The notes beneath the pieces were generated by a model. That model ran no database searches, was not told the DNA's origin, and worked only from the letters and a program-made list of their open reading frames with translations. Of a stretch of DNA of 64,000 bases, positions 17,376-58,498 are shown in pieces. The translations under genes were made by a program, and so were the position numbers. Within the stretch, counting starts at the first letter, position 1, and every line of letters begins with the position of its first letter. Origin of the DNA: a virus; the IMG/VR virus record IMGVR_UViG_3300030419_007002, positions 1-64,000 of that record; one strand, written 5' to 3'.

Positions 17376-17702
17376 ATGAATTTAATTATCGTGGACGAAC
17401 TTAGCTCGGACCCACCCTCTGAGGGTTTGTACTTCCGTTTTTTAACCATGGTGGCAAAAAAAGATTTAAATTACGACGTTTTGCTAGAGTCTGAGTCAGA
17501 AATGGTAGATATAAATTGGAAATTTCTAAAAAAGAGGGGCTGGTTTGATTTCGTGGATGACATTATTGTTCCCGAATGGAGGTTGGAGGGCGTCCGGGTC
17601 GATACAGATATTAATTATCCTATGACCATAAGAACTCCATACATTAGATGCGAAAATACACCTAACTTATTGGGGCAAATCAAAAGCTTAAGGGATATTT
17701 AG
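17376..17702 (+). CDS. Hypothetical protein on the opposite strand (108 aa)
   Basis: One of two plus-strand genes inside the minus arm. MNLIIVDELSSDPPSEGLYFRF, LLESESEMVDINWKFLKKRGWFDFVDDIIVPEW: this reads like a small HAD-like or nucleotide-fold protein without clear catalytic acids. ATG at 17376 (a GTG lies in frame 3 bases earlier). The stop overlaps the stop of the convergent 807-residue gene by 3-4 bases. Confidence 0.6.
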   Translation: MNLIIVDELSSDPPSEGLYFRFLTMVAKKDLNYDVLLESESEMVDINWKFLKKRGWFDFVDDIIVPEWRLEGVRVDTDINYPMTIRTPYIRCENTPNLLGQIKSLRDI

Positions 17703-20122
17703 CTTTCTACTCTTTCTTTCGCCTTATAAAAGAAAACTCGTTCGTGGTTTATTGGAGATGCCAGTAGGATTGCTGGTTTAACATCTTGAATTTTAGTTAA
17801 TTGGAATATGTGAGACATCCATGTTTGCTCGAATGGGTGACTCCATGTTTCGTCTAAAAACATTTTTTTGTTTCCCTCCTTGCTAACTATCTGCGGCCAG
17901 TTAGAATAGTAAACCTCACCGTCTATGTACGGAAGACCCTCTAAGCTTTTTATCTCGTTGAACGTGGTGCGGGGGCAGTTATCGTCTAGTCCTAATGTGG
18001 GTAGCTTGTTGTAGTTTGGCCAGTACTCCTCTCTTTTTTCTTGAGGGACGTTATACCAAGCCCATTGGGTTGCATTATCTCCATAGAATTCGGTAAAAGA
18101 TAATTTAAGAAAATCATATTCTTCTTTCAGCATTATCTTTATGCATTTTTCGTATAGGTCTTTTACGTAGTTATTGAATCCATTTTTGCAAACGGTACTA
18201 GTCAGGCTAGAATCGGTCGGCGGGTATAGCATCATGTCATCTTCAAGCCAAAACATAAACTCCGAATCAGACTCGGCGAAATGTTCTGCCGCTCTCTGTC
18301 TACCTCCACATATACCTAAATTTCCTTCTTTTATTTGCTCGAAGTCGTAGGCTTTGCATATTTTTTCGTATTTTTTATCTAAAGACTTTTTAGTTGAATT
18401 GTTTACTAAAACTTTTTTTAAGTTCGGGTCTTTTAAGAATCCCTCATGTGCTTCGTAGGAGTCTAATAGTAGCTGCAGTTGATCCGGGGAATTAAAAGTT
18501 ATTATATAGAGCGAGCATTTTATACCAGTAATATCTATTATCCTGTTTTGTTTTCTGGCTAATTTTATTGAGTCCTCTAGCTCCGCCTTACCCTCTAGTA
18601 TGTCCTCAAAAAATTTATTTATGAATCCGTTTTCTTCGATCATGAACCTGTCGAAGATCTGCGGGTTGAGGTACGTCATCAGGGTGAATATGCTTTCCTC
18701 TGTACCCATATGCCCCTCTTTTAGGGTTGACTCTAGTAAGTAATAATAGAAGCCGTTAGCCTCTGCTATGTGTTCTTTTCTTCCTCCAAAGAAGCCCCCT
18801 CTTGCTACCCAGCTGACATGCTTTGTCTCTGCGTACCTATCCATTGCTGCCTTTTCGAATCCGTGTATTTCGGATTGCGTCTCGTAAGGAAAGCATAAAA
18901 ATAGAAACTTATCCAAGAAGGGCTCTACCTTAGGTATTATTTCATGCTTCGTCCAGTAGCCTTCGTGAACTGTACTGGTTATTCCTCCATCTACCCAAAC
19001 GAAATAATCCGTACCGAACGGATCCATTATAGACGCATCATTTAGCATGAACATTTTGCTCATAACCATCGGATTGTATAGCTCCATGGTTGCCTGAGTG
19101 CTTTGCTCTAGCCAAGACGCTTGTTCTTTCCAAGATTTTCTTTTTCTTATCTTTTGTACTTCTTTGTAGAAGGGGAATTTTTTAAAATCAGAAACCTCCT
19201 TTATTGAAACTACTGTATTGTGTTCGGATCTATGCTCCCAGACTATGTGCTCATATTTCTTTTCTATGTATATGTACATAGGGGAGTCTGTTTTTAGTAA
19301 TTTAATAAAATTATCTATATAAAAATCAAAACCCCTTTTGAAGCCTTCTCCGGCCTTGTCTCTTTTAAGATCCCATATACCGGTAACAATGGTGGTTTTG
19401 CCCTTGTCGAAGTCTGAGCTATTGCCCTGAGTCGATGGGGCAAAATATAAATCTGAGCTTCCTTTGTAAAACTCATTACAGGTAAAGCCTTCCTCGTTAA
19501 AAAGGGCGAGTATCCGGTGGTTGCTGAGGTAGTCTCTGCCTGACTTGCCGTTTGCTGACTCAAAAACAATTACTGGTTTCTGTTCCGATTTTCTTAGGAA
19601 ATCTAGGACTCCTTTTAAAACTAAATAGTCTGCCCCCTCGCAATCTATTTTAATTAAATCAATATCTTCTTTATAGTTTACGTTTATTAAGCTTTCGTTT
19701 ACTAGTTCGTCAAAATTGTAAAAGGTTTTCTCCTGTCCTTCGCCTTCTGAGCATATCTTGTCTAGCCCTAGGTTTAAGTCTTTCTCGTCGACTTCGCCTT
19801 CTCTTGTTGCTGTGTGGAAGTATATATTTTTTGTTTCATCTAATAAGCCGTAGTTGTATACGTCTACCTTCTTATTTCTCGAGAGATTCTTTTTGGAGAA
19901 CTTGAATAGATCAATTGATGGCTCTAATAAAATTCCTTTGTTTATTTTTATTTTTTTAGATAAGTTAACGAAAAACTTACCCGTATTACTACCTATGTCT
20001 ATTACGCTATAGGATTTTTTCTTTGGTAAAACTTCAGAAATTTGATGGATCAATGAGTCTATGTGTCTGTCTTGCTCTTTGTGCCACCTCCTGATTAGCT
20101 CTGTTCTTTTTTTAGATGTCAT
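17699..20122 (-). CDS. Three-domain FkbM methyltransferase / HtrL-like / glycosyltransferase fusion
   Basis: An 807-residue protein. Residues 1-210: FkbM-type SAM methyltransferase (YSVIDIGSNTGKFFVNLSKK, then EDIDLIKIDCEGADYLVLKG). Residues about 240-500: WlaTC/HtrL-type glycosyltransferase (TTIVTGIWDLKRDKAGEGF, YFVWVDGGIT, WVARGGFFGG). Residues about 535-807: GT2-like domain (CSLYIITFNSPDQLQLLLDS, NNST, then FWLEDDMMLYP as the acidic metal motif). It could transfer two sugars and add a methyl cap to one glycan. The start overlaps the carbamoyltransferase end by 11 bases. The domain order is continuous with no frameshift. Confidence 0.8.
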   Translation of the reverse strand: MTSKKRTELIRRWHKEQDRHIDSLIHQISEVLPKKKSYSVIDIGSNTGKFFVNLSKKIKINKGILLEPSIDLFKFSKKNLSRNKKVDVYNYGLLDETKNIYFHTATREGEVDEKDLNLGLDKICSEGEGQEKTFYNFDELVNESLINVNYKEDIDLIKIDCEGADYLVLKGVLDFLRKSEQKPVIVFESANGKSGRDYLSNHRILALFNEEGFTCNEFYKGSSDLYFAPSTQGNSSDFDKGKTTIVTGIWDLKRDKAGEGFKRGFDFYIDNFIKLLKTDSPMYIYIEKKYEHIVWEHRSEHNTVVSIKEVSDFKKFPFYKEVQKIRKRKSWKEQASWLEQSTQATMELYNPMVMSKMFMLNDASIMDPFGTDYFVWVDGGITSTVHEGYWTKHEIIPKVEPFLDKFLFLCFPYETQSEIHGFEKAAMDRYAETKHVSWVARGGFFGGRKEHIAEANGFYYYLLESTLKEGHMGTEESIFTLMTYLNPQIFDRFMIEENGFINKFFEDILEGKAELEDSIKLARKQNRIIDITGIKCSLYIITFNSPDQLQLLLDSYEAHEGFLKDPNLKKVLVNNSTKKSLDKKYEKICKAYDFEQIKEGNLGICGGRQRAAEHFAESDSEFMFWLEDDMMLYPPTDSSLTSTVCKNGFNNYVKDLYEKCIKIMLKEEYDFLKLSFTEFYGDNATQWAWYNVPQEKREEYWPNYNKLPTLGLDDNCPRTTFNEIKSLEGLPYIDGEVYYSNWPQIVSKEGNKKMFLDETWSHPFEQTWMSHIFQLTKIQDVKPAILLASPINHERVFFYKAKERVES

Positions 20123-21752
20123 TTTTAGATATAATCCTATCTTCTATTACTACAGAGTCTAAACCATGCTCTAGCATAAGTATTGATTCTTGTATAGTAG
20201 AGACTATGGGTTTTCCGTTAACGTTTAGTGACGTATTTAGTAATACTCCGTGGTCATTTATTTTATTAAAATGAGTTAGTAAGTCGTATAGCCATGGGTT
20301 TTGATCCCTCGTGACCGTCTGTACTCTAGCTGTTCCATCAATGTGAGTAATTGACGCCAGTCTTTTCTTCCACTTTTTCTTAACTTTACAGGCGTAAGAC
20401 ATGAACCTCGACTCCCCTTCGAAAACAAAATATTTATTTACATCCTCCAGTCTAACGACTGGGGCAAAAGGCCTGAACCACTCCCTGTGCTTGACGTTAT
20501 CGTTAAGTTTTTCTTTCATTCCTTCTACAGATGGGTTGCACAGAATACTTCTATTTCCTAGCGCTCTTGGTCCATGCTCCGCTTTGCCTCTGGATACCCC
20601 AATGATATCCCCTTCTTTAAGTTTCGCGGCTAAGTCGCTTAGGTTAACGTCGGAAACAGCGCTTTCGTTTCCGTGAGAAAGCAGATTAAGCCCCATTATT
20701 GACAAATAAGAATCTTTATCTAGCAAGGGGAGTCCTGCATACGTCGCATCGAATCTTTTATCTGGCCTAAGGTATCCAAGGAGCATTCCTAAGGGTAGTC
20801 CGCAATCACTGCTATTGGGCGCGATGAACATGGGCCTCTTGAACTCATCTTTTATTCTCGTATTCAAGGATATATTAAGCGCACATCCACCAGTCAAAAT
20901 TATAGGAAGGTCTGGGTATTTTTCTATATATGGCCTAGTATATTTCAGGAATACATTTTCGAAAGCTCTTTGAGATGTCGCGGCTACGTCATATTCGATT
21001 TGCCCTTCGAGCCGTTGCTCTTCATCAAAAATTATGTTGGTGTTTTCTGTAAGTTTATCCAGCTTTTTCTTGTAAAAAAAATCATCTTCTTGGTTAAGTA
21101 GGTTGGCGTGCATGGGGCAATCGTAAAAGTCCTCAAAAAATGGCAGCCATCTCTCGATTACCTGTCCGAAAGCTTCTAGCCCCATGATTTTTCCAGAGTA
21201 AACTAGGTTACCTTCGGATAATGTTTCTTGGGATATGTCAGAAAAGAAATGCCCAAAAACCATGTATGGAAAACCTAAGTTAACCATAAAATAATTTCTT
21301 ATTAAGTTTACTCCTTTTTTTCTGTCAGCTAAATAAATATTAAATTGGCCATCGTTTCCGCCCCCATCATAAGAAATGACGAGCGCCTCTAGAAAATCTG
21401 ATTGATAAAAGGAACCGTTCGCATGACTTTCGTGATGGTTACAAAGGATAGCTTTATCGTGGTCTACTAAATCTAGTAAGTCTAATCTCTGCTCGCCTAT
21501 AACGTAATCCGCGCTTTGATGTAAACAGGTATCGAACCTTGAAGGGAGATTGTATTTTCTTTGGAGAAATTCCAAGCAGCTTTGGAAAGAGAAGGCTATC
21601 TTGTCTTGGTGAGGTATTTTGTATTGACAGAAGCCGGAGTTTTTCATCCCGAAGAATTTTTCAGCTTCCAATACATAAAAGGATCCGTCATGGTAGGCTG
21701 CTATGCCTCCATTATGTGATCCGTGTATAGAAATAACTGACTCATTCTTCAT
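20112..21752 (-). CDS. Carbamoyltransferase (NodU/CmcH family)
   Basis: A 546-residue enzyme that moves a carbamoyl group from carbamoyl phosphate, through carbamoyl-adenylate, to a hydroxyl of a sugar or antibiotic. N-terminal Kae1-like part: SIHGSHNGGIAAYHDG, CNHHESHANGSFY (metal-binding His pair), VISYDGGGNDG, TGGCALN. C-terminal YrdC-like part: GEDIIG-type ATP loop, SRGKAEHGPRALGNRSIL, KHREWFRPFAP, GTARVQTV, LNTSLNVNGKPIV. All hallmark residues are present and the length is normal. It sits between two glycosyltransferase genes, so the acceptor is probably a sugar of the same glycan. Confidence 0.93.
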   Translation of the reverse strand: MKNESVISIHGSHNGGIAAYHDGSFYVLEAEKFFGMKNSGFCQYKIPHQDKIAFSFQSCLEFLQRKYNLPSRFDTCLHQSADYVIGEQRLDLLDLVDHDKAILCNHHESHANGSFYQSDFLEALVISYDGGGNDGQFNIYLADRKKGVNLIRNYFMVNLGFPYMVFGHFFSDISQETLSEGNLVYSGKIMGLEAFGQVIERWLPFFEDFYDCPMHANLLNQEDDFFYKKKLDKLTENTNIIFDEEQRLEGQIEYDVAATSQRAFENVFLKYTRPYIEKYPDLPIILTGGCALNISLNTRIKDEFKRPMFIAPNSSDCGLPLGMLLGYLRPDKRFDATYAGLPLLDKDSYLSIMGLNLLSHGNESAVSDVNLSDLAAKLKEGDIIGVSRGKAEHGPRALGNRSILCNPSVEGMKEKLNDNVKHREWFRPFAPVVRLEDVNKYFVFEGESRFMSYACKVKKKWKKRLASITHIDGTARVQTVTRDQNPWLYDLLTHFNKINDHGVLLNTSLNVNGKPIVSTIQESILMLEHGLDSVVIEDRIISKNDI

Positions 21753-23061
21753 TTAAGATAACTGCGTCTAAGATCTTCGGAGTGTCCTGTTCGTGTACCG
21801 AATCTGGGTAAATTCTACCGGACAATTTCTCCATCCAATCTTTAGACTTACTGTGGGGCCATACCACCCATTCAAACGGCTTAACTTCCGTTTCGAACTC
21901 CCTGAATATCTTTATATAACCATCTGGGTCGTTGTACAGGTGGGGCATATCTTCTGCGGTTACGTCTTGCCTATGTATGGTGTTGCCTTCTTTATCGTGA
22001 AACGCTACCGCCCAGAAGTCATAATCTTTCTCGGGTACTTGATTCTTATCAAGGTCTATGCAGTGTTTAAATATCTTCATGAAGGAGGCTTGCCACTCTT
22101 CTTCATTATTGTAAACTGCTGGGTTCGGGGGGTAATTCTCGTCTTTAGTCCATTTTTGTATAGCTCTTTTTCCAAAGTTTAAACCGGAATAAACTTCATA
22201 TTGCCTTAAGGTTCTGTCTGTGCCCCAGCCATACTTTCCGAAATCAATGTCATTGACTAACCCATCCATTTCAAAGAGGGTTCTGTTTCTTCGGTGTGAT
22301 GACTCGTTCTTCCTCCCCCAGTCTGAATCATCATCCCATTGTTTTGTCCTTCCTTTTCTGGTGTATTCGTGCCAAACAACCACTTTATGCGGGTGGAATA
22401 GGTCGTAGCCATGGGTGTAGGCTCTGGCGGATATGCTGATTTCTTCTCCGTGGAAGTAGTATTCTGGGTCGTGCTGTACTTCCTCACTGAATTTGCCCCA
22501 AGTAAAGCAGAAATGAGCAGAATAAAATCTAGCAGGAACAGGATATTTCAGTTCTTTAAAGTTCTCTATGGTTGAAGGCATGAAGAATACAGCGCCCTCT
22601 GGAATGAATCTATCAAAATTCATTTGCCAAGGCTCGTTCACCCTTTCCTCTGGGTCTTTTCTTGGGTTGTAGGATGGGATATAGGCTGTGAGTAAGGGTT
22701 TCTGGTAACCTAGGTCTACTAGGCTGTGGAACATTTCTTTAAGCTCTGTATCCCAATTCTTTATGAATCTGTGATGGGAGTCCAACTGTAGGGTATAAGT
22801 CTCCCCTTCGTATAATTGCTGTATTTGATTCCTCGCCCAGCAGGTGCCTTTTGTTTCGTCATGGGGTACTTCTATTATCCTAAACCTTTTATCATCTTTA
22901 TATTCTTTTAGGTCATCAAATTTATCATCTGGGTGAAACTGCCTACATATACCGAAAACTAAATCATCAGGTTTCTCGGCGTTCTCGATACAATCTTTTA
23001 ATGTGGGTAGGAGTTCTGGGTCCCTGTAGCTCGCTATCTGTATAAAAATTTGATCGGACAT
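21742..23061 (-). CDS. Glycosyltransferase, Skp1 GlcNAc-transferase-like (GT60 type)
   Basis: A 439-residue protein. IFIQIASYRDPELLPTLKDCIENAEKPDDLVFGICRQ at the start, then GTCWARNQIQQLYEGETYTLQLDSHHRF (the D-S-H metal motif) and FFHGEEISISARAYTHGYDLFHPH are typical of the polypeptide N-acetylglucosaminyltransferase family that modifies hydroxyproline in Skp1; bacterial and viral homologues exist. The final 130 residues are less conserved. It heads the unit with the carbamoyltransferase and the three-domain enzyme. Confidence 0.85.
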   Translation of the reverse strand: MSDQIFIQIASYRDPELLPTLKDCIENAEKPDDLVFGICRQFHPDDKFDDLKEYKDDKRFRIIEVPHDETKGTCWARNQIQQLYEGETYTLQLDSHHRFIKNWDTELKEMFHSLVDLGYQKPLLTAYIPSYNPRKDPEERVNEPWQMNFDRFIPEGAVFFMPSTIENFKELKYPVPARFYSAHFCFTWGKFSEEVQHDPEYYFHGEEISISARAYTHGYDLFHPHKVVVWHEYTRKGRTKQWDDDSDWGRKNESSHRRNRTLFEMDGLVNDIDFGKYGWGTDRTLRQYEVYSGLNFGKRAIQKWTKDENYPPNPAVYNNEEEWQASFMKIFKHCIDLDKNQVPEKDYDFWAVAFHDKEGNTIHRQDVTAEDMPHLYNDPDGYIKIFREFETEVKPFEWVVWPHSKSKDWMEKLSGRIYPDSVHEQDTPKILDAVILNEE

Positions 23062-25068: not shown

Positions 25069-25221
25069 TTAATTTTTCTCGCAAGCACAATTGCAATCGG
25101 CAACTGAGCAACTGTCGGATGAACAGCAGCCCGCTTCGCAGGAACAATCCGAACATCCGGAATTTCCCCAGTTGCAACCGATTACAAAAAGCGCAGCGAA
25201 TAAAGTGATAATTGTTTTCAT
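25069..25221 (-). CDS. Cysteine-rich lipoprotein (50 aa)
   Basis: ATG at 25219-25221, TAA at 25069-25071. A lipoprotein signal (MKTIITLFAALFVIGC) puts the lipidated Cys at residue 16; the mature 35 residues hold nine more Cys in CxC, CC and CxxC groups and no long hydrophobic run. It could bind metal or be heavily disulfide-bonded in the periplasm or outer membrane. The ATG overlaps the end of the secreted protease gene (ATGA), so the two are made together. Confidence 0.7.
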   Translation of the reverse strand: MKTIITLFAALFVIGCNWGNSGCSDCSCEAGCCSSDSCSVADCNCACEKN

Positions 25222-26159
25222 TTTCTTTCTTTTAGTATTAATACCTTTGGATATGTTACACGTAACATGAACGGAAATAACTTTTTAGTTTCTTCGTTAT
25301 CAGCGGTATCTTTATCATCTTCCTCATCTTTTGGTGCGTGTTCTATGGGCATTTTCTTTAATGTGTCTTCGTCTGGCATTTCTACATTTCTGTCTAGGGC
25401 CCACATCATTTTATGTTTTTCGCAGTAATCTTGCATTCTCCTAACGGGTACTATAAGGTTAAAGCCCTCTCCCGCTCCCCTGACAAGCATTCCGATATAT
25501 CTGGCATCAGATTTTAAATATACACCTCCGCCACTAGACCCGGGGAATGCGGTCACTGTGGTTTGATCGAATACATATTTATTTAAACTTTTAATTAACC
25601 TACCGTGCTGAGAGTAGATTCCATCTGTCATGCTGTTCGCGCCCATTTGCCCCAGTAAGCTGCCTACGTGGAGTAAGCCTGTGCCTAGGTCTGGAATTTT
25701 TTCATCAAGATAGAAAGTGACCGTGTCTGTCACAAAATTGTATTTTCTTACACGAAGCAAGGCTAAATCGTGTCCATCGTCTGCATCGCTATATTTAAGA
25801 ACTTCAGCGTCCATTTGCAGTCTGCCGACGGTCCTTCCTCCTTGCCTGATCTCTTTTACCACCATTGGGTCTTTAAATTCCACAATGGTCTTCGGCTTAC
25901 CGTCCACCAGAGCCGTCCTAGTTTTTCTTAAGTTGTCTATAACATGAGCGGCTGTCCATACGAAATTCACCTGATTCCCTTTGGCGTCTTTTCTCGTGAA
26001 GATAACCCCAGATCCTTCTCCGGTTGAAAAATCTCCTTCGGATCTTATTGTGACAGAAACATTTTGCAAATGGTCTGCGGTTGTTTGTTTTTTATCGGCC
26101 GCACTCAGGTCGAAGCTTGAGAACGCCAATCCCAGTAGGATAGTGTATACGATTTTCAT
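25218..26159 (-). CDS. Secreted trypsin-like serine protease
   Basis: A 313-residue protein. Signal peptide at residues 1-21 (ending DLSAA). Catalytic triad of the chymotrypsin/HtrA fold: H72 in FVWTAAHVID, D131 in GHDLALLRV, S209 in FPGSSGGGV. No PDZ domain; the last 60 residues are acidic (EDDKDTADNEE) and probably disordered, ending in a short basic beta segment. It likely acts in the host periplasm. It is coupled to the Cys-rich lipoprotein by a 4-base overlap and preceded by a purine-rich AAAAGGTAAAAGG leader. Confidence 0.88.
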   Translation of the reverse strand: MKIVYTILLGLAFSSFDLSAADKKQTTADHLQNVSVTIRSEGDFSTGEGSGVIFTRKDAKGNQVNFVWTAAHVIDNLRKTRTALVDGKPKTIVEFKDPMVVKEIRQGGRTVGRLQMDAEVLKYSDADDGHDLALLRVRKYNFVTDTVTFYLDEKIPDLGTGLLHVGSLLGQMGANSMTDGIYSQHGRLIKSLNKYVFDQTTVTAFPGSSGGGVYLKSDARYIGMLVRGAGEGFNLIVPVRRMQDYCEKHKMMWALDRNVEMPDEDTLKKMPIEHAPKDEEDDKDTADNEETKKLFPFMLRVTYPKVLILKERK

Positions 26160-48972: not shown

Positions 48973-49049
48973 GCTCTCGTAGCTCAATTGGATAGAGCAT
49001 CTGTCTTCTAAACAGAGGGTTCTGGGTTCAAGTCCCAGCGAGAGTACCA
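48973..49049 (+). tRNA. tRNA-Arg (anticodon TCT)
   Basis: Seven-base acceptor GCTCTCG pairs with CGAGAGT (first pair is G-U), D stem GCTC/GAGC, anticodon stem TCTGT/ACAGA with loop CTTCTAA (anticodon TCT, reading AGA), five-base variable loop, T arm CTGGG-TTCAAGT-CCCAG, discriminator A, and an encoded CCA. AGA and AGG are the usual Arg codons in this AT-rich genome. The final A of CCA is the first base of the next gene's start codon. Confidence 0.95.
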
Positions 49050-50173
49050 TGAATAAAAGCGATACAAAAAAACTTAAAAATTTTTATGAATCCTTAAAGA
49101 GGGAGAAAGAGAGCTTCATAGGCTACCCAGTAAACACCTCCTTTGATTATTCCGAGCTCTTCGAGTTCCTGTCTATCCCGCTTAATAATGTGGGCGACCC
49201 ATTCTCTTCGAGTTATTACGGCCTAGACTCGAGAGAATTTGAAAGGGAGGTTTTGAATTGGTTTGCAAAACTACATAACGCTCCCCTTGATAATTATTGG
49301 GGATACGTAACCAATGGCGGAACAGAAGGAAACCTTTATGGGCTTTACCTAGCTAGAGAGTTGTACCCCAAAGGGGTTGTGTATTATTCCCAAGATACTC
49401 ACTATAGCGTAAGTAAAAACATTCGAGTATTAAATATGGAAAATGTGATGATTAAGTCCCGTCGCAATGGGGAGATGGATTATCAAGACTTTAAAGACAT
49501 GCTCTCTAGCTGGAGATCTGCACCGCCCATAATATTCGCTAACGTAGGGACGACGATGAGAGAAGCCTTTGATAGTGTATCTGAAATTAAAAAAGTCTTG
49601 AAAGAGTTAGCGATACCAGAATATTATATTCACGTAGACGCAGCGTTAGGTGGCATGACTCTTCCGTTTATTGAAGGCTCTCCCAAATTTGATTTTACAA
49701 CAGGTGTTCAAAGCATGTCTATAAGTGGACATAAGTTTATAGGTTCCCCCATGCCCTGCGGCGTAGTACTAGCCCTTAAGAGCAACGTGGGCAGGGTATC
49801 CAGAGCCGTAGAGTATGTGGGTTCACTAGATAGCACCATTAGCGGGTCAAGAAATGGATTCACTCCGATACTCCTGTGGTACGCAATTAAAAGGTATGGA
49901 TTTAATGGGTTCAAAAAAGTCGTAAGGCAATGCGTGAGAACCGCAGAGAAAGCCGTAAGGAAATTTAACGAAGCAGGTATAAAGGCTTGGAAAAATGATC
50001 ACTCTATAACAGTTATTTTCCCTAGGCCAAGCTATAAAATAAGCAAGAAATGGAAGCTTGCCGTTCAAGATGACATCGCCCACATAATTTGTATGCCTCA
50101 GGTTGATGATAAAACCATAGACTCGATAATAAAGGATATCCTAGAAGATGAGCCAAAGAAAATATTTGGATGA
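49049..50173 (+). CDS. Histidine decarboxylase-like PLP enzyme
   Basis: A 374-residue group II decarboxylase. GDPFSSSYYGLDSREFEREVLNWFAKL, GYVTNGGTEGNLYGLYLARELYPKGVVYYSQDTHYSV, IIFANVGTTMREAFD, YIHVDAALGGMTLPF (Asp binding the PLP ring) and SISGHKFIGSPMPCG with the Schiff-base Lys match the Gram-negative PLP-dependent histidine decarboxylases, which also have about 375 residues. It could make histamine or another amine. The start codon uses the last base of tRNA-Arg, so its ribosome-binding site would be inside the tRNA. Confidence 0.85.
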   Translation: MNKSDTKKLKNFYESLKREKESFIGYPVNTSFDYSELFEFLSIPLNNVGDPFSSSYYGLDSREFEREVLNWFAKLHNAPLDNYWGYVTNGGTEGNLYGLYLARELYPKGVVYYSQDTHYSVSKNIRVLNMENVMIKSRRNGEMDYQDFKDMLSSWRSAPPIIFANVGTTMREAFDSVSEIKKVLKELAIPEYYIHVDAALGGMTLPFIEGSPKFDFTTGVQSMSISGHKFIGSPMPCGVVLALKSNVGRVSRAVEYVGSLDSTISGSRNGFTPILLWYAIKRYGFNGFKKVVRQCVRTAEKAVRKFNEAGIKAWKNDHSITVIFPRPSYKISKKWKLAVQDDIAHIICMPQVDDKTIDSIIKDILEDEPKKIFG

Positions 50174-50204
50174 CCCCAATTTCCACCGTATAATTAATAG
50201 CCTC

Positions 50205-50615
50205 ATGAATATAAAATTAACAACTGTAGCGGTGAGCGGATACTTTGACCCTCTCCACGTGGGGCATATAGAGATGCTAGAAAAAGCGAAATCCCTAGGG
50301 GATAAGCTAATTGTTATAGTTAATAATGACGCCCAAGCTAAACTTAAAAAAGGCAAGTCATTCATGAGCCAAGAGGATAGGCTAAAAATCATAAGGTCGC
50401 TGAAATGCGTAAATGAAGCGTTCATTTCAATAGATGAAGACTCATCTGTATGCAAGTCGCTAGCCGCCTGTAAGCCAGATATTTTTGCCAACGGTGGAGA
50501 CAGAATAGAGGAGGAAATCCCCGAATCGCTTATCTGTAGGGAGCTCGGAATAGAAATGGTAGACGGACTTGGCGATAAAATAAGATCATCATCAGACTAT
50601 ACAGGACTTAAATGA
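50205..50615 (+). CDS. Nucleotidyltransferase, RfaE/HldE C-terminal-like
   Basis: A 136-residue cytidylyltransferase-fold protein: VAVSGYFDPLHVGHIEMLEKAKSLGD with the H-x-G-H motif, a Lys-rich KLKKGKSFMSQEDRLKIIRSL and ANGGDR near the end. In bacteria this domain of HldE adds AMP to heptose-1-phosphate. Here it is a separate protein upstream of the kinase domain gene. ATG at 50205 fits the family start; a frame from 50148 is possible. Confidence 0.8.
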   Translation: MNIKLTTVAVSGYFDPLHVGHIEMLEKAKSLGDKLIVIVNNDAQAKLKKGKSFMSQEDRLKIIRSLKCVNEAFISIDEDSSVCKSLAACKPDIFANGGDRIEEEIPESLICRELGIEMVDGLGDKIRSSSDYTGLK

Positions 50616-51382
50616 AATTTTTAGTAATAGGAGATAGCTGTACAGACAAATTTATCTACGGCAAATGCGAAAGGATATGCCCCGAAGCACCCGTGCCAGT
50701 CTTTAATCCGATAAAGGAAACCACCAATGGGGGCATGGCAGCTAACGTGAAAGCAAACGTTGAGTCTTTGGGCGTAGAATGTGATTTAATAACTCACGAA
50801 AATCAGATAGTTAAAACTAGATATGTAGATATTAAAACTAATCAAATGCTTCTGCGGGTCGATGAAAACGATGAGGCCATGGGAAAATTCAACCACGGAG
50901 AAGTAGATTGGAAAAAATATGATGCAGTTATTATTTCTAATTACGGAAAAGGTTTTCTCAACGGAATGAGTGATGTTAGAAAAATATGTTTAGAGCATGA
51001 TAATGTGTTTTTAGATAGTAATAAATGTAAGATAGATACAGATTTACCTTTAAATTTAAGATTCTTAAAAATAAATGAGTATGAACTAGAAATTAATCCT
51101 CACCTCAAGAGTCATCTAGAGCCAGACGTTGGATTTATGACAAATTATACTAGGCCAGATCAAATTATAATTACTCTGGGCCATAAGGGGTGCAGTTATA
51201 TGGGTAAGACTTACCCGCCGCCCAAGCGCGTTGTCGCTCAAGATTTATCTGGCGCAGGAGACACTTTTTTAGCAGCATTAGCCGTCTCCATAATGAAGGT
51301 CAACGAAGTAGAAATGGCTATAGAATTTGCAAACGAATGCGCTTCGAAAGTAGTTGAGAAAAGGGGAGTAAAAACAGTATGA
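50612..51382 (+). CDS. PfkB-family kinase, RfaE/HldE N-terminal-like
   Basis: A 256-residue sugar kinase, shorter than the usual 310. LVIGDSCTDKFIYGKCERICPEAPVPVFNP opens as in heptose-7-phosphate kinases; TTNGGMAANVKANVESLG, KTRYVD, ISNYGKGFL, ITLGHKGC and DLSGAGDTFLAALA with the catalytic Asp follow. With the previous gene it gives the two halves of HldE in reverse order, suggesting synthesis of an ADP-heptose-like sugar; a heptose isomerase is not seen. Confidence 0.85.
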   Translation: MKFLVIGDSCTDKFIYGKCERICPEAPVPVFNPIKETTNGGMAANVKANVESLGVECDLITHENQIVKTRYVDIKTNQMLLRVDENDEAMGKFNHGEVDWKKYDAVIISNYGKGFLNGMSDVRKICLEHDNVFLDSNKCKIDTDLPLNLRFLKINEYELEINPHLKSHLEPDVGFMTNYTRPDQIIITLGHKGCSYMGKTYPPPKRVVAQDLSGAGDTFLAALAVSIMKVNEVEMAIEFANECASKVVEKRGVKTV

Positions 51383-52314
51383 TTTATTTAGATGATTTAA
51401 CAGTTAAAGAATTGCTTGATAACAAGTGGCTTGAAATTGCTGAAGCCGTTGAGGAAGCATTTGTTGACCCAACGGCAGACATGGTTCCTAAAGTTTACCT
51501 TGAAGCAGGTAACGCTGGGGATTATAGGGCCATGCCAGCAGCATTAGGTGGCTACGCCGCTTTAAAATGGATTGGTGTGTTCCCTGACAATAAAAAACAC
51601 AGCCTTCCGACCACCATTGGTTCACTTATTCTTAACGATAGATACACGGGTCAGCCATTAATAGCAATGGACTGTACGACACTGACTGCGTATAGAACCG
51701 CCGCCACTTCCGCGATTGCTGCAAAATATTGCGCTCCAGACGCGGAAGAGTTTGCAATTATTGGTTGCGGGATACAGGGGAGGTACCATATCGAAGCCTA
51801 CGAAGCCATTTGTCAAGGCCACATGAAGTTAAGCATAGAGCTTTACGATACCAACGAAAGCCCCATGTTGCAAATGTTTAATTGGCTTGGTAGAGAAAAC
51901 CTTTGTCATGCTTGGGGCAGAAATAAGTCAGTAAAAGAAGCCGTTAAATACGCAGACGTTATCACGACACTCACGCCCTCGACTGAGGGCTATCTAAATA
52001 TACTTGATCTTAAAAGTAATTGTCATGTAAATGCAGTTGGCGCAGACGCCGTGGGTAAGCGTGAATTAATGACTAATGTAATTGACGGAGCCGCGAATAT
52101 CATTTGCGATGACCCAACGCAAGCTCTGCACTCTGGAGAATTACAATACAATGAGTGGCCTCATTTAGATGTTAGCTCCATGAATCATCTCATCAGGAAT
52201 CATAAAACCATGCAGTTAGACAGGGGCGTGTCAATATTTGACTCGACAGGGGTGGCGATAGAAGATATAGCTATCGCAGAATTAATCTATAGGCTTCACA
52301 ATGGACAAAAATAA
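51379..52314 (+). CDS. Ornithine cyclodeaminase / mu-crystallin family enzyme
   Basis: A 311-residue NAD(P)-binding protein. PKVYLEAGNAGDYRAMPAALGGYAALKWIGVFPDN, then TTLTAYRTAATSAIAAKYCAPD, and EFAIIGCGIQGRYHIEAY as the Rossmann loop, and DVITTLTPS, NAVGADAVGKRE. Members convert ornithine to proline, or act on alanine, lysine or ketimines. Its codon use looks slightly richer in GC and Ala than neighbours (not measured), so recent acquisition is possible. Confidence 0.9.
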   Translation: MIYLDDLTVKELLDNKWLEIAEAVEEAFVDPTADMVPKVYLEAGNAGDYRAMPAALGGYAALKWIGVFPDNKKHSLPTTIGSLILNDRYTGQPLIAMDCTTLTAYRTAATSAIAAKYCAPDAEEFAIIGCGIQGRYHIEAYEAICQGHMKLSIELYDTNESPMLQMFNWLGRENLCHAWGRNKSVKEAVKYADVITTLTPSTEGYLNILDLKSNCHVNAVGADAVGKRELMTNVIDGAANIICDDPTQALHSGELQYNEWPHLDVSSMNHLIRNHKTMQLDRGVSIFDSTGVAIEDIAIAELIYRLHNGQK

Positions 52315-52825: not shown

Positions 52826-53311
52826 ATGAATACTTTTACTAAATGGTTTCTGATTAATGCGGTCATGGGAACTGCCGTTTTTTTTGCAGAACAAAAGGGC
52901 GCGGTATCTACCGTAATTAAAAATGACTTATCATATATTTCTATTTTGATAATGGCACTATACGTTGGAGTTTCTATTTACGTAGGGAGATTATGTTACT
53001 TAGCTGACAAAATAAATAAGAAAAGAGAAGACGACGCCAGAGAATATTTACTAAAACGATCAGACTTGGGGTGGTTCTCTGCGGAACATTTTTTCTCATT
53101 AGGGCTATTGGGTACGATCATAGGACTAATCTTCGCAACGAGAGGAAGTCTCGATTCATCACTACCAGTAGCAGATATAGTTGCGGGATTAAAAGAAGGG
53201 CTCAACACAGCCTTTTACACAACCGTGTGCGGAATTGTATTTAGCTTACCGCTACAGGTACAATTGGTAATTTTAAAATTTAAGCTAGAAACTCATGGCC
53301 ATAAAACCTAA
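52826..53311 (+). CDS. MotA/TolQ/ExbB-family proton channel subunit
   Basis: A 161-residue membrane protein with helices at about residues 6-22, 36-58, 88-106 and 126-150. SLGLLGTIIGLIFATRG (residues 91-107) and DIVAGLKEGLNTAFYTTVCGIVFSLPLQVQL (117-147) match the two pore helices of TolQ/ExbB, including the G-L-L-G-T and the T-T in the second. In bacteria such pentamers rotate around an ExbD/TolR dimer using the proton gradient. The partner gene follows at 53456. It lacks the long cytoplasmic tail of ZorA-type defence proteins. Confidence 0.85.
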   Translation: MNTFTKWFLINAVMGTAVFFAEQKGAVSTVIKNDLSYISILIMALYVGVSIYVGRLCYLADKINKKREDDAREYLLKRSDLGWFSAEHFFSLGLLGTIIGLIFATRGSLDSSLPVADIVAGLKEGLNTAFYTTVCGIVFSLPLQVQLVILKFKLETHGHKT

Positions 53312-53456
53312 CAGAAGCGAAAGGCTCATCATAGTCATTGTGGCTTCAGCTGCGATTGGCTTTACGCTAGGGGTTCTGTCCATGGAGCAAAAGGTAAAAG
53401 AAAAAGACGAACAAGTAGAAGAACTACTTGGCGCAGTAGAGGATTTATTAAAATAA
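53295..53456 (+). CDS. Small membrane protein with coiled-coil tail (53 aa)
   Basis: ATG 53295, TAA 53454-53456. Membrane helix at about residues 11-28 (LIIVIVASAAIGFTLGVL), then SMEQKVKEKDEQVEELLGAVEDLL. It overlaps the channel subunit by 17 bases and the ExbD-like gene by one, so it is probably a third member of the complex. Confidence 0.65.
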   Translation: MAIKPNRSERLIIVIVASAAIGFTLGVLSMEQKVKEKDEQVEELLGAVEDLLK

Positions 53457-54049
53457 TGAGAAAATTTTTTTCATTCAGGCCATTCATTGACGTTTTGTTC
53501 TGCTGCCTTCTTATGTTGGTGGCGATCTTATTTCTGCTAAAGACAGAGGAAGAGAAAACTAAGTCTCGCCCTCCTAATGTGATTTATGAAATAGTACTGA
53601 CTTGGGATGGAGACAGTGAAGATGATCTAGACATCTATGTGCAAGCTGCATCGGGGCACAAGGTATACTTCAACAATAGGGAGGGCGGAGAAGGCAGTCT
53701 TATAAGCTTAGACCATGACGCGTTAGGCAAGCGAAGAAATAATAGCCTATCCCAAGGGCAAGAAGGGACTGTTGTAAAATTCAACGAAGAGATAGTCTCG
53801 TTTAGAGGGGTAACCGAAGGAGAAAACATAGTCACCGTTCACGTATATTCGAAAAGAGATGAAGAACCAACAGTAGCCACAATTAAATTAATAAAAATTA
53901 AACCATTCAGAGAAGTCATCACCAAGCAAAGACAATTCTCCACCACGGGGCAAGAAAAAATAGCCTTCAGGTTTAAAACAGACAAGGACGGAAACATCTT
54001 AGACGTAAATGAGTTACCAGCTAATTTAGTAAATCAATTAGGAGAATAA
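53456..54049 (+). CDS. ExbD/TolR-like protein fused to a YfaP/DUF2135-like domain
   Basis: A 197-residue protein. The N-terminal SFRPFIDVLFCCLLMLVAILFLL is an ExbD/TolR transmembrane helix with the proton-carrying Asp (D12) in the P-F-I-D-V context. Residues 45-150 (EIVLTWDGDSEDDLDIYVQAASGHKVYFNN, SLDHD, GENIVTVHVYS) resemble the YfaP/DUF2135 fold, D-L-D-x-x-V included, which is found in extracytoplasmic adhesion or von Willebrand-linked proteins. It replaces the usual small ExbD periplasmic domain and lies outside the inner membrane. Confidence 0.75.
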   Translation: MRKFFSFRPFIDVLFCCLLMLVAILFLLKTEEEKTKSRPPNVIYEIVLTWDGDSEDDLDIYVQAASGHKVYFNNREGGEGSLISLDHDALGKRRNNSLSQGQEGTVVKFNEEIVSFRGVTEGENIVTVHVYSKRDEEPTVATIKLIKIKPFREVITKQRQFSTTGQEKIAFRFKTDKDGNILDVNELPANLVNQLGE

Positions 54050-54051
54050 TC

Positions 54052-55050
54052 ATGAAACCATTAGTAGCAGTAGTAGACTGGAAGCAATCACCAAGAGGTG
54101 ATGAAAGTTGCTATATAGAAAAAGAGGCTATTGGTAATAGGGCGCGAGTTAAATATTTTAAATGCGATACGGATAAAGACTGGAAAGGGGAAGTATTAAA
54201 ATCGGACTATATCCTCTTATGGCACAATACAAGTATGCCCGATACAGTAATAAACAAGCTGGAAGACTGCAAAGCAATAATTAGAATTGGCACCGGATAT
54301 GATTCAGTCGATTATATTGCGGCCGCAACCAGAGACATCCCAGTTTGTAACGTTCCAGACTACGGAACAGATGAAGTTGCAGATCACTCCATAGCCTTAG
54401 CGCTTGCCCTTTGTCGCCAAATTATACCCATTGACCAAGAATGTAAAAACCTTGGTTGGGACATACCAAACAAAAATAAGATTCAAAGATTTGGAGAAAT
54501 GATGTTCGGGGTTATAGGGCTAGGCAGAATTGGAACATCTGTCGCCCTAAAGGCTAAAGCTCTCGGATTTGAAGTTCATTTTTATGACCCCTACCTTTCT
54601 AATGGCGTCGATAAATCCCTAGGTATAGCTAGAAGTAAAAATCTCGATAATTTTTTAGGCATGATGGATATAGTGTCCATTAATTGCCCGCTAACCGAAG
54701 AAACTCATCATATGATTACGAAGAGGGAGCTTAAAATAATGAGAAAAAATGCTTTCATTGTTAATACAGCGCGTGGATCCATTATAAAAAAGAAAGATTT
54801 ATTCTCCTCCCTCAGAAAAAATGATATAGGTGGCGCAGCCCTTGATGTAATAGAAGACGAGCCATTGAAGACAAAAAAAGAAGCCGAAACCCCCAACCTA
54901 ATTGTAACGTGTCATTCTGGATTTTACAGTATCCAAGCTGCATGGGAAATGAGACATAAGGCAGCATCAATCGCACGAGATATGATCTTAGGAGAAGATA
55001 TAGAGAATTGTATTAACTGTAATTTTTTACCAAGGAATTTTATAAAATGA
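54052..55050 (+). CDS. D-2-hydroxyacid dehydrogenase (CtBP/SerA family)
   Basis: A 332-residue NAD-dependent dehydrogenase. VCNVPDYGTDEVADHSIALALALCRQ, FGVIGLGRIGTSVALKAKALGFEVHFYDPYLS Rossmann loop, DIVSINCPLTEETHHMI, NTARGSIIKKKDL with the catalytic Arg, DVIEDEPL with Glu, and CHSGFYS with the His region. Substrate unknown: hydroxypyruvate, phosphoglycerate or keto acid. It follows the ExbD-like gene by 2 bases. Confidence 0.93.
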   Translation: MKPLVAVVDWKQSPRGDESCYIEKEAIGNRARVKYFKCDTDKDWKGEVLKSDYILLWHNTSMPDTVINKLEDCKAIIRIGTGYDSVDYIAAATRDIPVCNVPDYGTDEVADHSIALALALCRQIIPIDQECKNLGWDIPNKNKIQRFGEMMFGVIGLGRIGTSVALKAKALGFEVHFYDPYLSNGVDKSLGIARSKNLDNFLGMMDIVSINCPLTEETHHMITKRELKIMRKNAFIVNTARGSIIKKKDLFSSLRKNDIGGAALDVIEDEPLKTKKEAETPNLIVTCHSGFYSIQAAWEMRHKAASIARDMILGEDIENCINCNFLPRNFIK

Positions 55051-55559
55051 TTTATTTATTATACGGACAACCGGGATCAGGCAAAACAACTCTGGGAAGT
55101 ATGTTGGCCAGAGAAATAGACACCCCATTTTTTATAGATGGAGATGAATTTCGTAAAATGTTTTCACGCCAGAACCTCGGGTACGGAAAGGCGGGCAGAA
55201 CCAAGAACATAAGGAATGTCAATGCGGTAGCAACCTTTTTAAATAAGAAAGGTAAAAGTGAAGACTGGATGTGCATTTATGTTCGTGACAAAAACAACCC
55301 CAACAGTATAGAGGGGATAAGCGTTAACAACGAAACTGATGTAGTTCTAAGTTTTGTTAACCCTTATGCAGAGCTAAGAGAAGAACTGAGGGTAGACAAT
55401 AAAGGGCAAGTGGTAGAGATTTTATTAAAGTCAGACAGAGATCTAAGGAAAGAATATCATGTTGAAGACTTCGAAGAAGGCAACCCAGATCACAGCATAT
55501 CCACAGACAAAGATGTTACAGAAGGTTGGGCTGAATTAAAAAATTTATTAAAATTATGA
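55047..55559 (+). CDS. Adenylylsulfate (APS) kinase
   Basis: A 170-residue kinase producing PAPS from APS and ATP. P-loop GQPGSGKTTL (residues 7-16), FFIDGDEFRKMFS and GYGKAGRTKNIR, which are the D-G-D and the family R-x-x-N-I-R motif, then the lid-like VNPYAELREELR and the KEYHVEDFEEGNPDHSISTD end. The middle (LNKKGKSEDWMCIYVRD) departs somewhat from bacterial CysC, so activity needs checking. It gives a donor-supply step for the four sulfotransferases of this window. No sulfate adenylyltransferase is seen. Confidence 0.82.
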   Translation: MIYLLYGQPGSGKTTLGSMLAREIDTPFFIDGDEFRKMFSRQNLGYGKAGRTKNIRNVNAVATFLNKKGKSEDWMCIYVRDKNNPNSIEGISVNNETDVVLSFVNPYAELREELRVDNKGQVVEILLKSDRDLRKEYHVEDFEEGNPDHSISTDKDVTEGWAELKNLLKL

Positions 55560-57919: not shown

Positions 57920-58498
57920 ATGAATATAGCATTACCAATTTTATTATTAGTATTTGGAGCACTGAGCTTTTGGATACTCACTGAATCAAGCGTTAGGTGG
58001 TATATCAAAACGGCTTGCATTACAACGTTTTGTTTATTCACGATCGTTTTTTGGACAACTATACACACCTTCTTGGGGTGGTCGGCTCACGAAGAATATA
58101 TGCCTCAAAAAGTTTTGGTTCATTGGGTAATAATCAAAGAGCCCAATAAAGTAACCGAGTCGAAAGGCTCTATACACATTTTGATAGAGTCCATAGAAGA
58201 CGCAAAAGGAAATATGATTTCCAAATTCTTCGGCTACAGAACGGATAAAATTGAGCCAAGGCTATTTGAACTAAAATACAACAGAGAGCTTCACGAAAAA
58301 CTCGAAAAATTAAAACAGAGACTTAAACAAGGCCAACCTGTAGCTGGTAAATTCACCAAAGAAGGAGAGAAAGGAAAGGCTAAGGGTGGAAAGGGAAAGA
58401 AAAACGACAAGAACGGAGAGGGCAGCGAATCTCAAGAGCAAAGCTGGGAATTCCACGAATTATTACCATCAGAAATACAAGGGAAACCAGAGCGATGA
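57920..58498 (+). CDS. Membrane protein with charged C-terminal domain (192 aa)
   Basis: Helices at residues 3-20 and 30-52, then a basic/acidic domain with VLVHWVIIKEPNKV and SIHILIESIEDAKG strands, a charged helix (HEKLEKLKQRLKQ) and a Lys/Gly-rich linker (KEGEKGKAKGGKGKKNDKNG). Unassigned; possibly membrane anchoring of a cytoplasmic domain. Overlaps the next gene by 4 bases. Confidence 0.6.
   Translation: MNIALPILLLVFGALSFWILTESSVRWYIKTACITTFCLFTIVFWTTIHTFLGWSAHEEYMPQKVLVHWVIIKEPNKVTESKGSIHILIESIEDAKGNMISKFFGYRTDKIEPRLFELKYNRELHEKLEKLKQRLKQGQPVAGKFTKEGEKGKAKGGKGKKNDKNGEGSESQEQSWEFHELLPSEIQGKPER

Follow-up and report, generated by a model that had tools for sequence, protein, structure and literature searches.

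A putative proton-driven envelope motor with a third subunit shared by phages and Proteobacteria

Here, we identified a three-gene module, designated A-B-C, which probably encodes an inner-membrane envelope motor of the 5:2 class that is driven by the proton motive force (PMF), has a new domain in B and a new third subunit, C, and is shared by many unrelated phages and by bacteria. Mechanical work at the Gram-negative envelope is done by ion-driven 5:2 motors, of which only a few kinds are understood. In this class a pentamer surrounds two partner helices, and a membrane Asp cycles protons. We see an even chance that A-B-C represents a further, undescribed class of envelope motor beside the Mot, Ton, Tol, Zor and gliding motors, and one with a transducer subunit of its own, C, that phages have recruited repeatedly to energise the envelope of infected cells. 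The 5:2 class itself is treated in two papers (PMC9389320; PMC12505986). If this proposal is true, it would add a further kind of motor, the first to be found in phages as far as a search limited to open papers can tell; phages would bring their own envelope-energising machine, and a function would be given to three unannotated families. No paper on phage-encoded ExbB/ExbD was found in a literature search that covered mainly open-access papers, and no description of A-B-C as a unit was present in the databases searched.

The stretch of DNA analysed (64 kb, hereafter the window) is part of the 104,346-base virus record IMGVR_UViG_3300030419_007002, which contains ribonucleotide reductase and DnaB-like helicase genes. 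A previous sequence-only reading had pointed to three overlapping genes at 52826-54049, and these were indeed present on the plus strand: gene A (52826-53311, 161 aa), a 53-aa membrane/coiled-coil ORF (53295-53456) and gene B (53456-54049, 197 aa), with overlaps of 17 bases between A and the small ORF and of 1 base between the latter and B. The same reading had overlooked gene C (57920-58498, plus strand, 192 aa) as well as the chromosomal copies of the module in many Proteobacteria. Metabolic genes flank the motor genes (49049-52314 and 54052-55559), including those for a PLP decarboxylase, a cytidylyltransferase and a PfkB kinase as separate RfaE-like halves, and ornithine-cyclodeaminase-like, D-2-hydroxyacid dehydrogenase and APS-kinase-like genes. 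Elsewhere in the window, a minus-strand row at 17699-23061 (an FkbM methyltransferase/HtrL-like fusion, a Nol-like carbamoyltransferase and a GlcNAc-type glycosyltransferase) is a phage-borne set for surface-sugar modification.

The proposal of a TolQ/ExbB-type channel subunit was borne out for gene A, which matched Pfam MotA_ExbB (PF01618) above the curated cut-off (25.1 bits against 22.9, E=1.6e-5), as did 26 of 27 of its relatives at E<=0.1. A profile built from A retrieved solved structures of MotA, PomA, ZorA, TolQ and ExbB, with a Motility protein A at the top. Most homologues have three or four hydrophobic segments according to hydropathy. In the window, the third (residues 86-104, 53081-53137) contains the motif G93-L-L-G96-T97-I-I-G100 and the fourth (about residues 124-152, 53195-53281) contains T133 and G136. 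The two pore helices proposed previously at residues 91-107 and 117-147 agree roughly with the hydrophobic stretches at 86-104 and 134-152. All six of these Gly and Thr residues are kept in nearly all homologues; among the aligned rows, G93 is found in 92 and T97 in 88 of 93, T133 in 89 of 92 and G136 in 92 of 92. The window protein is a short form that lacks a long cytoplasmic tail. Values of pN/pS for the motor module in near relatives (0.13-0.34) imply purifying selection. Judged by its sequence, A is a genuine member of the MotA/TolQ/ExbB family.

Gene B occupies the position of ExbD, TolR or MotB, as seen in its AlphaFold model and in homologous loci. The model (pLDDT 87.2) has one helix at residues 8-36 (53477-53563), also evident from hydropathy, followed by an all-beta domain (residues 44-185, 53585-54010), and a single hydrophobic segment was found in 170 of 171 homologues. 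Previously, D12 in this helix had been proposed as the proton-carrying Asp of an ExbD-like subunit. The position of this candidate ion-binding residue (codon at 53489-53491) holds an Asp in 90 of the 92 homologues aligned and is invariant in 27 diverse rows, which upholds the membrane Asp, whereas the outer domain is not of the ExbD type: the small alpha/beta periplasmic domain of ExbD is absent from the all-beta model, ExbD, TolR and MotB were not among the listed fold matches, and the ExbD/TolR profile (PF02472) gave a best E-value of only 0.07-0.09, below its cut-off. No family matched window B above cut-off. The best Foldseek matches were DUF4425 structures, one of them calcium-bound (probability up to 0.99, but weak by E-value, about 0.01), and the weak Pfam matches of B homologues were to PPC- and PLCC-type beta-sandwiches. 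The agreement between the DUF4425 fold match and the weak PLCC match suggests that the modelled outer domain is a calcium-binding-type beta-sandwich. Its nearly invariant residues are W50, D57, D59, D88, G91 and E112. The positive N-terminus ahead of the single helix would, by the positive-inside rule, place this domain on the periplasmic side. DUF2135, which had been suggested as the identity of the domain (YfaP/DUF2135-like), was dropped: in spite of a tblastn resemblance of B to a phage protein annotated as DUF2135 (E=0.09), none of 27 B members had this family among its Pfam matches. Domains similar to the B sandwich also occur in 673-676 aa proteins of Klebsiella phage KpS8 (L006, 2259-4289) and Aeromonas phage phiA8-29 (L007, 2232-4253), apparently without a membrane helix, and neither phage record has a MotA_ExbB gene. 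These two proteins were left out of the B profile.

The small gene between A and B had been put forward as a possible new subunit, and this idea did not hold. A tblastn search across all fetched loci gave no match to the 53-aa ORF except the window itself, and the two motor genes overlap each other in most near relatives, with unrelated genes between them in others. As a motor subunit it was thus ruled out; the ORF is a passenger and not a conserved component. Within the clade of the window, most members have cargo in the B-C gap and some have it in the A-B gap, with contents that differ from one relative to the next. The A-B junction of this clade is an insertion spot for unrelated genes, including those for methyltransferase-like, ferredoxin-like and large basic proteins (L022, 5486-5998; L057, 8476-8703; L059, 4327-5442).

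The true conserved third partner of A and B is gene C. In the window, it was located by profile search 3,870 bases past B, with cargo genes between, and in distant loci A-B-C forms a tight operon, with C directly after B. The AlphaFold model of C (pLDDT 77) comprises two N-terminal transmembrane helices and an outer alpha/beta domain, with a tail that is disordered. Two positive residues lie in the short loop that joins the helices, from which the outer domain would be expected outside the cytoplasm. No match was obtained in the curated families of Pfam and NCBIfam, and nothing similar was found among solved structures by fold search. Against BFVD, the model matched three viral models with a probability of about 1.00, the named one being a transmembrane protein of Rhizobium phage RHph_Y68; because one P10VF sequence is part of the alignment behind the C model, this match is supportive but not fully independent. 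The C profile was widened by iteration, and in the phages similar to 16-3 the homology relies on weak scores (E of 1e-4 to 0.2) together with position.

With regard to phages, a tblastn search of phage records with B retrieved homologues from cultured Rhizobium phages, which share 24-29% identity across 90-99% of the length, and an ExbB-like gene lay directly upstream of B in every locus inspected. A more distant B query added 16-3, AP-16-3, NV1.1.1, RHph_X2_25 and RHph_TM3_3_14B, and scans of viral contigs (up to 342 kb) yielded 47 and 58 loci with B and 10 with A. Every one of the 65 distinct phage B loci contains A, 51 of them within 60 bases. C was detected in 55 of the 65 (36 within 100 bases); the ten loci without it all have <6 kb of downstream sequence, and C is present in every locus with a downstream flank of at least 6 kb. 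Thus, the claim that a phage encodes such a motor pair agrees with what cultured phages carry, and recurrence of the gene order, put forward previously as a check, was observed for A-B, and for C as well, but not for the 53-aa gene. Since the A-B order recurs in other phages, these are not isolated, unrelated membrane proteins.

The surroundings of the phage copies vary. Among about 30 distant phage loci no other neighbour family was common to more than eight, so gene context gives no firm indication of function. The module lies beside late-sigma-factor and DNA repair exonuclease genes in Pootjesviridae, and a vWA protein near it in RHph_I1_18 is of the DUF2828/DUF7788 type, unlike the vWA-FHA protein that accompanies some cellular copies (see below). 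In the temperate phage 16-3, p038, p040 and p042 correspond to A, B and C and had not been recognised there; the membrane Asp of p040 is D5. These three genes are not the immX immunity genes, which map to 18.3-18.7 kb. In four Rhizobium phages of the temperate type, a serine protease gene precedes A; it was rejected as a general fourth component, as a protease was detected in the flanks of few other loci. A relative of the protease directly upstream of A in the 16-3-like phages is encoded in the window at 25218-26159 (minus strand); its start resembles a signal peptide, and it contains a trypsin-like domain (Trypsin_2, E=1.5e-9). Also in 16-3 (L175, 19471-21066), p029 is endolysin-like (PHROG 181, E=4e-21), and p033 shows a weak similarity to Rz-like spanins (E=0.0016). 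Neither gene is annotated in the 16-3 record, and the region may be the lysis cassette of this phage.

A scan of bacterial genomes revealed the same A-B-C order in Gammaproteobacteria and Alphaproteobacteria; Thalassobaculum litoreum and Azospirillum brasilense, for instance, have it on the chromosome. Two class-wide samples, whose classes follow the titles of L079 and L082, together made up 464 alpha- and gammaproteobacterial genomes. In the first, 32 of the 274 genomes contain B, and in the second 25 of the 190 do (about one in eight), while 30 and 22, respectively, contain C; all 52 C-positive genomes were also B-positive, compared with about 12% expected by chance. At the gene level, 41 of 42 cellular B genes have A and 40 of 42 have C, 38 of the latter within 100 bases. 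These copies are located on long contigs beside core genes such as tilS/accA/dnaE, birA/coaX, glnS and fliG (names from sequence), and not beside prophage genes or in defence islands. Small MAG contigs placed in Parcubacteria or Actinomycetota may be phage sequences that were misbinned. In one gammaproteobacterial group (L150, L151, L154, L156 and relatives), the flanks contain a YkuD L,D-transpeptidase, a DUF302 lipoprotein and a vWA-TM-FHA protein, which are possible cellular partners of A-B-C; the L,D-transpeptidase and the vWA-FHA membrane protein imply an envelope setting for the cellular copies. The module of this group also adjoins a two-component system. Two or more further TolQ/MotA-family matches were detected in six of seven cellular genomes tested, which implies that A-B-C is an extra motor. 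In the B tree, the phage and cellular labels need at least two and at best four changes, so transfers between phages and cells have been few.

If A-B-C works as the known families do, A would form the ring or channel, presumably a pentamer around two B helices, and proton uptake and release at D12 of B would make the ring turn or shift. This motion could then reach the cell wall or the outer membrane through the B sandwich and through C, a third subunit specific to this motor that probably passes on or anchors the force. In phages, the module would most likely supply energy for work on the envelope of the infected host. As to the specific task, upkeep or remodelling of the host envelope is our first choice, held with modest confidence; it is preferred because the module is also chromosomal and does not reside in defence islands. 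A-B-C is directly testable since 16-3 of Sinorhizobium meliloti, a classical genetic phage, and several other Rhizobium phages have it among their unnamed genes.

Several other explanations were weighed. One is a defensive role like that of Zorya, in which the motor would detect a second phage at the envelope of an infected or lysogenised cell, or block its entry there. Temperate phages, 16-3 among them, and numerous large phages carry the module, which would fit, and ZorA is one of the closest relatives of A among solved structures and curated profiles. We regard such a role as unlikely, however: A scored 26.2 bits against a curated ZorA cut-off of 500 and lacks the long ZorA tail, no model of ZorB, ZorC, ZorD or ZorE matched B or C, and the chromosomal copies lie among core genes rather than in defence islands. 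An involvement in lysis, in which the module would use or sense the PMF late in infection and time or complete lysis, appears unlikely to much the same degree. Although the 16-3 module follows shortly after the endolysin-like p029, the spanin-like p033 and a periplasmic-type protease, and two out of 85 neighbours from other phage loci hit endolysin families, most phage loci have no lysis neighbour, the Pootjesviridae copy has the sigma-factor and exonuclease neighbours described above, and the bacterial copies are chromosomal and away from prophage genes.

It is more doubtful still that A-B is no motor and serves just for regulated ion leakage, or as an inert membrane support for the outer domains of B and C. 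The small cytoplasmic part of the very short A (161 aa) and the absence of a rotor, peptidoglycan-binding or transducer domain of known type could be read in this way, but the membrane Asp and the pore Thr/Gly residues are strictly kept across sequences of about 25% identity, which is what a working channel predicts. That A-B-C travel in the virion and power genome entry, a role suggested by the previous reading, is hardly to be expected, considering that the same module is found on bacterial chromosomes and is not linked to structural genes in either 16-3 or Pootjesviridae.

A-B-C was also compared with known systems. A survey describes, in the portion consulted, a 'generic ion transporter' group, made up of Exb/Tol-like pairs that are not flagellar and bear various added DUF domains (PMC12505986); that portion makes no mention of phage-encoded pairs, the B domain or C. 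Membership in Zorya was ruled out: although ZorA profiles are the nearest curated matches of A, the protein is far below the ZorA cut-off, B has no OmpA-like domain, and the other Zor genes, including ZorC, ZorD and ZorE, are absent. With the flagellar stators MotA-MotB and PomA-PomB, A shares its best solved match and, with four segments, the number found in MotA, whereas it lacks the torque-generating cytoplasmic domain and B lacks the OmpA-like peptidoglycan-binding domain that characterise stators in the same portion of the survey (PMC12505986). The Ton system has a comparable architecture, with A in the Pfam family of ExbB, B resembling ExbD in its single helix and near-N-terminal membrane Asp, and a third membrane partner beside the pair; it differs in that window A is far below the exbB equivalog cut-off, the outer domain of B is a beta-sandwich instead of the alpha/beta domain of ExbD, and C spans the membrane with two helices and lacks a TonB domain. 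No match of C of the TolA or TonB kind was obtained in Pfam, NCBIfam or solved folds, and no TolA, TolB or Pal was recognised beside A-B-C among neighbours that were clustered and only in part annotated by profile. A-B-C and Tol-Pal share several traits: A belongs to the Pfam family of TolQ, which is also among its solved relatives, B has the single helix with a membrane Asp near the N-terminus, a third membrane partner is present, and the order TolQ-TolR-TolA is similar to that of A-B-C.
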